From positions 8,620,001 through 8,684,000 of the forward strand of contig NC_092576.1 of assembly GCF_037975245.1 (NCBI RefSeq): a stretch of 64,000 bases of DNA. Direction: 5' to 3'. Source of the stretch: Apostichopus japonicus (taxonomy: Eukaryota > Echinodermata > Holothuroidea > Aspidochirotida > Stichopodidae). The notes under the pieces were generated by a model. That model made no database searches, had not been told where the DNA came from, and worked only from the letters and a program-made list of their open reading frames with translations. Of the stretch, positions 26,897-48,279 are shown piece by piece. The translations under genes and the position numbers were made by a program. Every line of letters starts with the position of its first letter. Position 1 is the stretch's first letter.

Positions 26897-29800
26897 GTAG
26901 GTGTATATAAAGTTTTTATTTTGCTATTTTAAATTCGTTCTCATTGTTTCTTTCTAAGTTTCACAACTAATATCGGTACCTCGTGACAAACCTTGGACAG
27001 CAGTTAATAACTTTGATGTTATACAATTTAGATTATACTAAGAAAACAAAAATGAACAAAGAGTCATCATCATCATCATCATCATCATCATCATCATCAT
27101 CATCATCATCATCATCATCATCATCATCATCATCATCATCATCATCATCATCATCATCATCATCATCATCATCATCATCATCATCATCATCATCATCATC
27201 ATCATCATCATCATCATCATCATCATCATCATCATCATCATCATCATCATCATCATCATCATCATCATCATCATCATCATCATCATCATCATCATCATCA
27301 TCATCATCATCATCATCATCATCATCATCATCATCATGAATTTCATGCAACCCTCAATATTTCGTCTGCCGCATACTTTGCACAGCAGTATAAATCACTG
27401 ATTACAAAATAATCACAATTTTAAAGTAAAAATTGACACTTGCTCTTAATCAGTATACATGTGAATGAAAATTTGACTAAACAATATAAGACGTACCTTG
27501 TAAGATTGGATTTTATTTTAGGCTAGCATTACAATAATTATGTTTGCGATTTCAAGTCAAATGGCTGCTTTAAATCATTCACTTTTGAATAGTGTCATGG
27601 TCGACACCATCTACGCAAAGTATACTTAATCGATTACAACCATTCAAATCTGTGACAGCATTTTATGTAAAATTGAATTACCCGTCACGAAATACAACCG
27701 ACACACTATAATTTAGTAGGTGTCATTGTGACGTCTAAAAATCCGAGAATAGTTTGTCATAATGTCGTCGCAGCTCTAGCAGAAATTTCACAAACAAAAT
27801 CGTGCTAGATTGAGGGGCATGTTGACATTTATTTTGTATATACTTATTCGTCCATCCGTCATCACTCCATCCGTCAATTTATTTCCCGTCCGTCCGTCCG
27901 TCCGTCCGTCCGTCCGTCCGTCCGTCCGTCCGTCCGTCCGTCCGTCCGTCCGTCCGTCCGTCCGTCCGTCCGTCCGTCCGTCCGTCCGTCCGTCCGTCCG
28001 TCCGTCCGTCCGTCCGTCCGTCCGTCCGTCCGTCCGTCCGTCCGTCCGTCCGTCCGTCCGTCCGTCCGTCCGTCCGTCCTTGGCCGCTCGCCCCTCGGAT
28101 ACCATTAAATCGTCACTGAACTGATGCGGGTTTTTTTCAGTCAGTATTAAACTTACTTCATTATCGGTACATGTAAGCTTTGTTGATTTCCTCATCTTAT
28201 TTTGATACATGTTACCTTTTTTTTAGTGTCTATCAATGCAGAATATCCTCCGTCGGGTTTCCCGCTTTTCTACGTCATGTCTCATTATCCGGAAACTGGT
28301 CGCTCTGCGCCTATTTACGTGTACGCGTCGACCCGATTTTTCATTGGCGATAGTGATACAGTGGATATCTCAATCACAAAGGACGGAGGGCTACCTACCA
28401 ATGCATTGCAGACTGGTTCGATCATTGGCAATCACGGATACTTTTACGGATGTTTCCTTCGGGTAGATGAGTTGAACCGCCGACGAGGAATGCGGTATGG
28501 GCAATATCGAGGACATTTGAATTTTGCCGACGGAATAAGTGAATTCACTGGTTACACATTTGTAAAACCAAAATCAGGTGACTATTATTTAAGTGATTTC
28601 AGTTTTTTTTTTTTTTTTTTTTTTGGGGGGGGGGGGAACTGACAGTTTACGTAATGTTCTCGAAATTATTATCCAGTTTCATTGCTTCTTGGATTTTTGG
28701 CTAAGATCATGTAACTTGTTGAACTGTAAACAGTGCACAGTACATTCACTGAATTACCCTGATCTTGTGTTAGATTTTTTTATTTTTAATGATTCCCTTT
28801 CCAATGGGACTCATGACACAGACTTGAGTTGGCATCATGACATCATAACACGGTTTACATTCTTAAATGTCAACCTATTGTACTTGAGAGTGGATCAAAG
28901 TGTTTCGTTTTCTTCGTGCAAAGGGTCTATCTTGGAAAAAGATTTCTTTAAAAAGAAAAGTATCATTTTTTGGCAATATTCAAAGCTTACAATATTACTT
29001 TGAAAGGAACTTTCTTATAATATTTGAATGTATTTCCCTTGTTTTTAATGAGGTTGTTTTGTGGGTAGGTTTCTTTCATATTAACCAGGTTTGAGCAAGT
29101 ATTGATATGTTATCACCGATGTAATCATTAATAACGTAGAAATCTGCTTGATTTTTCCTCCTTTTCTTTAAAGTCATGCCCTGCAAAATATTGATTTACG
29201 GATTAATTACATAATATGCTACAACGTTATAGTTCTACTGATTCGTGCATACAAGGATCCCCAAATTAACTGTGAAACTTTTGAGTTATGAGTTAAGTTT
29301 ACCAAAACAGTTGAGATAACCAAATACATTTTAGTGACATTATGGCCAAAAGGGTATGTTTGTTAACTTTTCTTTTGTTCATGACCGTTGTATGGAACGT
29401 AAAGTATCAAGATTTACTACATAACTATAATCTATAATGCAATGTGTGTATTCTCACAGAGGAGGTTGTGGGTGTGCGCGTGCCTGTGCGTGTGTGTACA
29501 TGTTTTGTATTCTGTTTGAGGACTTTGAACAAAGGAATTTCAATTCCTCAGACATCATTTCAAAAGAATCACCTTCAAGTTTTATGTTTCAAGTCTCGTC
29601 CCTCATAAGTATTCTACTTCGGGGTATTGTAAAAGTCAGGGTACGTGGATTTCAACAATGGCAAAAACAATGGGTCCTCATTCTGTATGTAAAACACACC
29701 TGCGTGTGTGTGGATGTTTGCGCGTTCTGTCTTAAGGGCACTTCCTCATTCATTTAGATGATTAGATGAGATGCCGGGCCTGTAAGTATTAATTTTTTTT

Positions 29801-47500: not shown

Positions 47501-48279
47501 CATAATATCGGGTAATGGTACAGCGACTAATAAAATTTCCAAATTCGTGGATCTTCTCATCCAACTTCTTGTTTAGTCCCTACCGTCCTATTTGCAGGAC
47601 ACTACGGATTTCATCCGGAAAATTGGGGACATAAACAATCTTCCCCTATCGACTCTGTTATATATATATATATATATGTACTACTATCTACTATCAGCAT
47701 ACTATCATACTATCAGCGTCCATATGATCTACCTGGTTAGGGTGTCCGCATGTAAAGCGAGAGGCGTTGGTTCGAATCCCGGTGGAGGCTGGAATTTTAC
47801 AGCTTCTTACATTTTCAAATGAAATACCTACATATATATGTATTGCTATAGTGGTTCTTCTATAGATTGAATGTACACACACACACACACACACATATAT
47901 ATATATATATACATATACATATACACACACATACACACTCATATATATATATTTATATATTTATGTATATACATATACGCACACACACACATACACACAC
48001 AAATAATACATATATATATATATATACATATACGCACACACACACATACACACACAAATAATACATATATATATATATATATATATATATATATATATAA
48101 ATTCAATTGCATTAATCATTTATTACCACTTCATATACATACAATTTTTTGCTCTTGCAGCTTGTCCTAAAGGTAAATGGGGAGCTAGTTGTGAGCAGAA
48201 CTGTCCCGACAACGAATCGGATTGTAACCGATTTTATGGACCTTCATCTAATCTAAAAGTATGCAGAAGAATCCCTTAA
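41475..48279 (+). CDS. Gene 3 (complete): secreted Tie-like Ig/EGF protein, 6 exons, 364 aa
   Basis: Exons 41475-41532 (signal peptide), 42831-43181 (Ig-like 1), 45060-45323 (Ig-like 2), 46123-46260 (EGF 1), 46492-46656 (EGF 2), 48161-48279 (EGF 3 and stop). All junctions are GT/AG, phase 1; coding length 1095 nt. It has the same plan as gene 2 but about 35 amino-acid differences against only about four silent ones, a two-codon loss in EGF 1 and a different C-terminus (NLKVCRRIP). It lacks the exon 6 duplication. The secreted product and unknown ligand are as for gene 2. Confidence 0.8.
41697..41910 (+). repeat. (TCA)n trinucleotide array, about 71 units
   Basis: Uninterrupted, intron 1 of gene 3. 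Confidence 0.97.
42449..42672 (+). repeat. (CCGT)n tetranucleotide array, about 56 units
   Basis: Uninterrupted, intron 1 of gene 3. Confidence 0.97.
42831..43181 (+). CDS. Gene 3 exon 2: N-terminal Ig-like domain 1
   Basis: 351 nt, phase 1-1. Ten residues differ from gene 2 (for example AEYPP to AMPPP and FFIGD to FQLGD) with a single silent change; more than half of the exon is identical at every base. Confidence 0.8.
43182..45059 (+). other. Intron 2 of gene 3
   Basis: Starts with a poly(T)/poly(G) tract and contains a tandem duplication of about 245 bp (about 44026-44270 and 44271-44515) absent from gene 2. No gene seen. Confidence 0.65.
45060..45323 (+). CDS. Gene 3 exon 3: Ig-like domain 2
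   Basis: 264 nt, phase 1-1. Replacement changes include RKIVWSKG for [13 protein letters not shown] for ARDIN and RRGGRGFSVQ for [10 protein letters not shown]; one silent change. Confidence 0.85.
45616..45694 (+). repeat. (TA)n tract in intron 3 of gene 3
   Basis: About 80 bp of TA, followed at once by the perfect palindrome atgattgtacaatcat (45697-45712). Confidence 0.9.
45768..45909 (+). mobile_element. tRNA-like short element with hammerhead ribozyme
   Basis: 142 bp bounded by a perfect 11-bp inverted repeat, taacacaccag (45768-45778) and ctggtgtgtta (45899-45909). Inside are a pol III A-box-like tggtcgagtg (45790-45799), a B box ggttcgattcc (45833-45843) and a hammerhead (separate entry). 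The combination recalls SINE-like elements that carry hammerhead ribozymes, for example Sm-alpha of schistosomes. It occupies the place of the (TAGA)n array in gene 3 and has no copy in genes 1 or 2. Confidence 0.6.
45839..45894 (+). ncRNA. Type I hammerhead ribozyme
   Basis: Stem I: ATTCC/GGAAT (45839-45843 with 45890-45894), internal loop, then CTTCGC/GTGAAG (45847-45852 with 45883-45888). Core CTGATGA (45853-45859). Stem II GTCC-CAAAA-GGAC (45860-45872). Core GAAA (45873-45876). Stem III is minimal, AC-CG-GT (45876-45881). The C at 45882 is the predicted cleavage position. All invariant core bases are present. The tiny stem III suggests action as a dimer, as in retrozymes and Penelope-type hammerheads. 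Confidence 0.8.
46123..46260 (+). CDS. Gene 3 exon 4: EGF-like module 1
   Basis: 138 nt, phase 1-1; two codons shorter than in genes 1 and 2. [20 protein letters not shown], then CICPPFLTGGLCDC. At most one silent change against gene 2. Confidence 0.85.
46492..46656 (+). CDS. Gene 3 exon 5: EGF-like module 2
   Basis: 165 nt, phase 1-1. Begins LDPTGEQLYLNYEETLTCED; eight replacement and one silent change against gene 2, nearly all in the first 20 codons before the EGF core. Confidence 0.85.
46777..47659 (+). mobile_element. Penelope-like element copy 3, 3'-truncated
   Basis: Same intron position as copies 1 and 2. It keeps the 77 bp (47200-47276) that they lost, encoding TPADKGSAIVAM, followed by the frame 47259-47576 with [17 protein letters not shown]. 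It ends after INNLPLSTL at a (TA)n tract, so the catalytic FIDDIF region and the endonuclease are gone. Confidence 0.85.
47714..47790 (+). mobile_element. tRNA-derived SINE head
   Basis: A-box-like tggttagggtg (47734-47744) and B box ggttcgaatccc (47769-47780). AGCGTCC and GGAGGCT at the ends pair at six of seven positions like an acceptor stem. Flanked by TA-rich repeats. Could also be a decayed tRNA gene. Confidence 0.45.
47874..48099 (+). repeat. (CA)/(TA)/(CACATA) compound microsatellite
   Basis: Mixed ca and ta repeats, with two similar blocks (acacacaaataatacatat). They fill the end of intron 5 of gene 3. Confidence 0.9.
48161..48279 (+). CDS. Gene 3 exon 6: EGF-like module 3 and stop
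   Basis: Acceptor cttgcag. [21 protein letters not shown], ending SSNLKVCRRIP-stop. A small deletion changes the end compared with the second unit of the duplicated exon in genes 1 and 2. Confidence 0.75.

Follow-up and report, generated by a model that had tools for sequence, protein, structure and literature searches.

A tandem array of Tie-ectodomain-like genes in a sea cucumber, with short coding patches that seem to change faster than neighbouring non-coding DNA

The receptor Tie2 carries two N-terminal Ig domains ahead of three EGF repeats, and binds angiopoietin through its Ig region. Reports on echinoderms place Tie in coelomocytes, with a Tie-2-like protein in starfish (PMC13409769) and SpTie1/2 in sea urchin (Stevens 2010, by its title in the references of PMC6494969; also PMC12113024), and report that fibrinogen-related genes, the class of angiopoietin, are expanded in a sea cucumber genome (PMC5638244). 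Here we analyse 64,000 nucleotides of the sea cucumber Apostichopus japonicus (RefSeq assembly GCF_037975245.1, contig NC_092576.1, positions 8,620,001 to 8,684,000 of the forward strand; hereafter the window, numbered from its first letter), in which one gene is present as three direct copies, genes 1, 2 and 3. The best explanation of how these copies differ, which we hold with moderate confidence, is that they form a tandem family encoding secreted proteins similar to the Tie ectodomain, in which positive selection has diversified patches on a conserved scaffold. On moderate evidence, the patches seem to be changing faster than neighbouring non-coding DNA.

The window is DNA of animal type, with 35% guanine plus cytosine, introns, long microsatellites and not a single N. 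Gene 1 is truncated by the left edge, its exons 1 and 2 lying outside, while the gene 2 unit occupies 25920-40573 and the gene 3 unit starts at 40573; the three genes are tandem duplicates. Exon borders were set by splice sites, giving six exons for each of genes 2 and 3 and, for gene 1, exons 3-6. All 13 introns of these genes are GT-AG and in phase 1, and the frames are open. The feature examined here, 28227..48279, begins with exon 2 of gene 2 and ends at the gene 3 stop codon. Predicted products of 367 residues (gene 2) and 364 residues (gene 3) share one layout, a hydrophobic N-terminus followed by two domains (exons 2 and 3) and three EGF-like repeats (exons 4-6) with the stop in exon 6, and both are presumably secreted.

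Comparison with solved structures points to Tie2. A profile of four copies aligns with the Tie2/TEK ectodomain collinearly over the three EGF-like repeats (E 2.1e-8), and a phmmer search with a draft splice of gene 2 also reached Tie2/TEK (E 2.4e-7). Both searches gave only three matches below 1e-3, all of them Tie2/TEK, and the next match (an EGF repeat of Notch or factor VII) had an E above 0.2. No Pfam family matched the gene products above its cut-off, including the parts encoded by exons 2 and 3, which form beta strands in low-confidence models (mean predicted local distance difference test scores of 42 and 52, too poor for mapping the patches). No Ig3, FN3, transmembrane or kinase part was found before the exon 6 stop in genes 1-3, and we therefore describe the genes as Tie-ectodomain-like rather than as Tie receptors. 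Past the start of the gene 2 product, the most hydrophobic 17-residue stretch scores 1.60 and lies at residue 258, in a cysteine-rich EGF repeat; the N-terminus scores 1.76. The viral contigs and prokaryote genomes searched yielded no confirmed relative, as expected for an animal gene. Among the papers listed by literature searches around Tie-like genes, titles and abstract openings describe no Tie-like family that is both secreted and tandem, which is weak evidence of absence.

Across exons 1-5, 52 bases distinguish genes 2 and 3, affecting 35 replacement and four silent codons. Exon 1, with the start codon and a hydrophobic segment resembling a signal peptide (from splice borders and hydropathy), lies at 26839..26896 in gene 2 and 41475..41532 in gene 3, on the plus strand like all exons of genes 1-3, and has four replacement codons and five differing bases. 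Exon 2 (28227..28577 and 42831..43181) encodes the N-terminal domain of the mature protein, in the position of a Tie Ig domain; its 10 replacement codons and 17 differing bases are confined to 28240-28260, 28307-28343 and 28428-28439, and no base differs between 28440 and 28611, a stretch that includes the exon end and part of the intron. The second N-terminal domain, which has a DAGLY motif, is encoded by exon 3 (30275..30538 and 45060..45323), with four replacement codons and five base differences. In exon 4, EGF-like repeat 1 (33264..33407 and 46123..46260), nine codons are replaced and none changed silently, by 11 differing bases. The gene 3 exon is 6 bases shorter, in frame, and this gap has two placements, one of which turns one replacement into two silent differences. 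Exon 5, EGF-like repeat 2 (33653..33817 and 46492..46656), has eight replacement codons, and 13 of its 14 base differences fall within 33655-33704. Six more replacement codons and one silent codon are found in exon 6, which encodes EGF-like repeat 3 and the stop codon (36856..36977 and 48161..48279); its C-terminal tail differs between the genes, having been rearranged by an insertion or deletion. The original prediction had counted about 35 replacements against four silent sites by eye, and for exons 1-5 its figures match ours, by exon and in total.

Exons 1-5 offer 749 sites for replacement and 226 for silent change (3.3 to 1), and path averaging assigns them 45.6 replacement and 6.4 silent changes, a ratio of replacement to silent divergence (dN/dS, or omega) of about 2.2. 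As a neutral yardstick, the introns of the two genes show 122 differences in 2829 sites clear of gaps (4.3%), a count that is nearly independent of filtering (122/2697 in local alignments), and the flanks differ at 213 of 4263 (5.0%; upstream 35/858, downstream 178/3405). Silent divergence, at 2.8%, is somewhat lower than that of introns (p 0.30) and flanks (p 0.15); here and below, Fisher tests on path-averaged counts use rounded numbers.

Codon models, custom-written rather than run in PAML, give a dN/dS above 1 for genes 2 and 3. A pairwise maximum-likelihood model estimates omega at 3.15 (p 0.0095), a value as high in only one of 150 simulations at omega 1. A site-class comparison of M2a with M1a favours a small fraction of codons (5%) that evolve very fast, with a difference in twice the log-likelihood of 44.8, which falls to 7.6 (p 0.022) when multi-base mutations are allowed. 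When differences are counted as mutational events, 33 are replacement and two silent (one-sided p 0.0065).

The strongest evidence for the patches comes from a fourth, divergent paralog. A tblastn search of the window with the gene 2 protein revealed this old copy on the minus strand, with exons 3-6 at 17202-14254; part of a second copy of it lies at 62.8-64.0 kb. Its exon 3 (16939..17202) is 70% identical in amino acids to gene 2 and its exon 4 (16410..16550) 37% identical, while exon 5 (15529..15699) is 69% identical with a nearly identical C-terminal half; in exon 6 (14254..14402) the reading diverges from the other genes after NCP. Relative to genes 1-3 its silent sites are saturated (dS above 2, by a simple correction), and omega, 0.11-0.13 overall, falls to 0.03-0.04 in the C-terminal stretch of exon 5. 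By contrast exon 4 has a dN of 0.53-0.55, and the first 22 columns of exon 5 have one of 0.60-0.86; this division of exon 5 was made by eye and serves for description only.

This paralog allowed codons to be classed as conserved, where it has the same residue as gene 1, or variable, where the two differ or the fourth paralog has a gap. The test covers 205 codons, namely those of exons 3-5 plus 17 at the start of exon 6, and uses the exon 4 gap placement with two silent differences. Between genes 2 and 3, the 67 variable codons have 18.5 replacement changes among 161 sites (11.5%), whereas the 138 conserved codons have 8 among 315.5 (2.5%). Variable columns thus diverge at 2.7 times the rate of introns (p 0.0004) and also exceed the flanks (p 0.0018, with 18 changes used against 213/4263). 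Nor is the classing circular, because of the 20 columns at which genes 2 and 3 disagree within the compared part of exons 3-6, gene 3 has the residue of the fourth paralog in only one, and gene 1 has it there too. The original prediction of diversifying selection is partly supported, mainly at the level of patches, which are denser in differences than the introns.

Several results weigh against positive selection, however. The 35 replacement and four silent codons give a two-sided binomial p of 0.058, and we rejected the raw count as sufficient proof of selection; the earlier statement that it far exceeds neutral expectation was too strong. Replacement divergence, at 6.1% without correction, exceeds the neutral yardstick by a factor of only 1.2 to 1.4, with 46/749 differing from introns at p 0.04 and from flanks at p 0.21. 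Clustered mutation is a further difficulty, since 25 of the 52 differences sit in eight strings of 2-7 adjacent bases and inflate this divergence; multi-base mutations that mimic positive selection are a known problem (PMC6332903). With double and triple changes allowed, omega for genes 2 and 3 is 2.49 and gene-wide support becomes borderline (p 0.068; six of 150 simulations). Counted over all sites, events that replace residues are not in excess of those in introns (p 0.18), and single silent events, two on 226 sites, are below the intron level at p 0.06, so that the high ratio stems partly from scarce silent changes. Conserved columns fall below introns without reaching significance (p 0.18), and exon 2, which contributes 10 of the 35 replacements, lacks a counterpart in the fourth paralog; the column test covers exons 3-6. 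An unfiltered hmmsearch of the open frames in all six reading frames found no such counterpart in the window, the best other hit having an E of 3.8.

Comparisons with gene 1, whose exons 3, 4, 5 and 6 lie at 455..718, 1498..1641, 1879..2043 and 4918..5039 (the last with the stop codon), are also partly unfavourable. For genes 1 and 2, exons 3-5 give an omega of 2.3 that was reached by 29 of 150 null simulations (36 with multi-base mutations), replacements (13/536) do not significantly exceed intron differences (8/634; p 0.18), and neither class of columns is significantly different from introns (variable p 0.17, conserved p 0.51). All seven base differences in exon 4 are replacing, above the level of nearby introns (p 0.011), in an exon chosen after looking. 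Between genes 1 and 3, with columns classed by gene 2, variable columns (20.5 changes on 163.7 sites) lie above their own introns (p 0.04) and conserved columns (7 on 312.8) below them (p 0.001). The pairs 1-2, 1-3 and 2-3 have branches in common and are not independent, and the main limit is that all four copies were taken from a single stretch of a single genome.

These difficulties lend some weight to relaxed constraint combined with complex mutation, whereby single events would alter 2-7 adjacent bases in tolerant loops and, silent sites being few, the ratio would exceed 1 by chance. We regard this as rather unlikely. The eight strings in 975 coding bases are what such events would leave, and support for selection drops once they are allowed for; moreover, isolated single-base replacements (25/749) occur at the intron rate (83/2750; p 0.63). 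The original prediction that changes cluster in patches is correct for exons, where 17 pairs of adjacent differences compare with 3.1 expected, but introns are clustered too, with 20 pairs against 7.7 (none of 5000 shuffles as high in either case), and the ten strings in 2750 intron bases are not significantly less frequent than those in exons (p 0.10). Tolerant loops should nevertheless change at the intron rate, yet variable columns are about 2.5 times faster even by events (13 on about 155 sites against 93/2750 in introns, p 0.0036, or 0.010 with looser merging), and isolated silent events are still few (25 replacement and two silent, one-sided p 0.033, or 0.012).

Strings of changes between invariant stretches could instead arise by microconversion, in which short tracts from unseen, more diverged paralogs would create patch differences without new point mutations. 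An array that was recently homogenised or duplicated, as bins of 0-0.2% divergence between the units of genes 1 and 3 indicate, would suit such a process. However, the fourth paralog is not the donor, because gene 3 matches it in only one of 20 differing residues, and imported tracts would be expected to carry silent changes as well; we consider microconversion an unlikely source of the patches.

Two further alternatives concern the nature of the copies themselves. Genes 2 and 3 might be two alleles of a very heterozygous animal that were assembled in tandem rather than paralogs. Their divergence of 4-5% is within the allelic range of some marine invertebrates, and their units abut at 40573, but the window contains no N, gene 1 is present as an additional copy, and repeats and insertions distinguish the copies from one another; allelic status, which we judge very unlikely, would in any case leave the ratio standing. 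That the copies are decaying pseudogenes is highly improbable. Although exon 6 tails differ among genes 1-3 and the fourth paralog departs from the common reading in that exon, neither exons 1-5 of genes 2 and 3 nor exons 3-5 of gene 1 and the fourth paralog contain a stop or frameshift, length differences among these exons are multiples of three, and splice borders are intact.

Other features of the array were recorded alongside the genes. Exon 6 of genes 1 and 2 is spanned by a tandem duplication with a period of 112 bases (4917-5139 and 36851-37078), the first copy of which ends differently in the two genes; gene 3 lacks the duplication and has another tail. At the duplication joint (25920, 40573) the region downstream of gene 2 passes directly into that upstream of gene 3, and by eye hardly any bases are shared at the joint itself. 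Comparison of the units of genes 1 and 3 in 500-base bins gives 0-0.2% divergence in five bins from 13.0 kb on and 1.2-8.9% in the other 19. The low-divergence pair is 13000-15591 and about 61400-64000, for which recent gene conversion, very recent duplication and an assembly effect are candidate explanations.

An element that we call Penelope-like, from a weak reverse transcriptase match and a GIY-YIG domain, occupies the same intron in genes 1 and 2 (2317-4703 and 34039-36434, 98.6% identical), with only pieces left in gene 3 (46776-47660); its insertion probably predates the duplications. A second GIY-YIG-like open frame (17228-17665, plus strand; E 0.0004, just under the Pfam cut-off) lies immediately upstream of exon 3 of the fourth paralog. 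Intron 3 of gene 3 contains the sole hammerhead ribozyme match in the window, of type I (45847-45888, 38.8 bits), which genes 1 and 2 lack. It lies downstream of a stretch at about 45789-45843 that looks derived from a transfer RNA by eye, where ARAGORN finds no such gene, and the two together are perhaps a small retroelement. Gene 2 intron 3 holds about 553 perfect AGAT units (30950-33160), and downstream of gene 3 a 44-base minisatellite forms a 5 kb array (53601-58554), to which a 0.8 kb array downstream of gene 1 is related.

If positive selection is the correct explanation, long-term purifying selection would have held the scaffold (the cysteines, exon 3 and the C-terminal half of EGF 2), while positive selection would have changed short patches faster than neutral DNA, namely the three exon 2 stretches including the mature N-terminus, EGF 1 and the start of EGF 2. 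The patches may be surface contact sites, and the diversified proteins may bind a changing partner, either microbial molecules or angiopoietin- or fibrinogen-related ligands for which they could serve as soluble decoys. An immune or decoy role is thinkable, the link to recognition and immunity resting on resemblance. More tentatively, a kinase-free branch of Tie could have become a tandem array encoding secreted proteins for recognition or as decoys, with patches that diversify quickly, perhaps in step with the expanded fibrinogen-related (angiopoietin-like) proteins, so that the ectodomain of a growth-factor receptor was recruited as a variable repertoire of immune type; we think this unlikely.

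Should the patches truly diversify, an animal that probably has no antibodies would possess a secreted, variable repertoire derived from an ectodomain like that of the angiopoietin receptor. This would tie the evolution of a vascular receptor to invertebrate immunity and name residues as candidates for binding. The raw count of 35 to 4 reads differently once multi-base mutations and the intron yardstick are considered.

The nearest comparison is with the Tie receptors of vertebrates (Tie1/Tie2) and sea urchin (SpTie1/2). As in Tie2, the products described here have three collinear EGF-like repeats after two N-terminal domains; unlike Tie receptors, the genes are short, tandemly repeated and patchily variable, and stop in exon 6. 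The expanded and diversified immune families of invertebrates (SpTransformer, FREP, SRCR and C1q), compared by description rather than by sequence, have unrelated domains, but resemble this array in their tandem, near-identical copies and signs of diversification.

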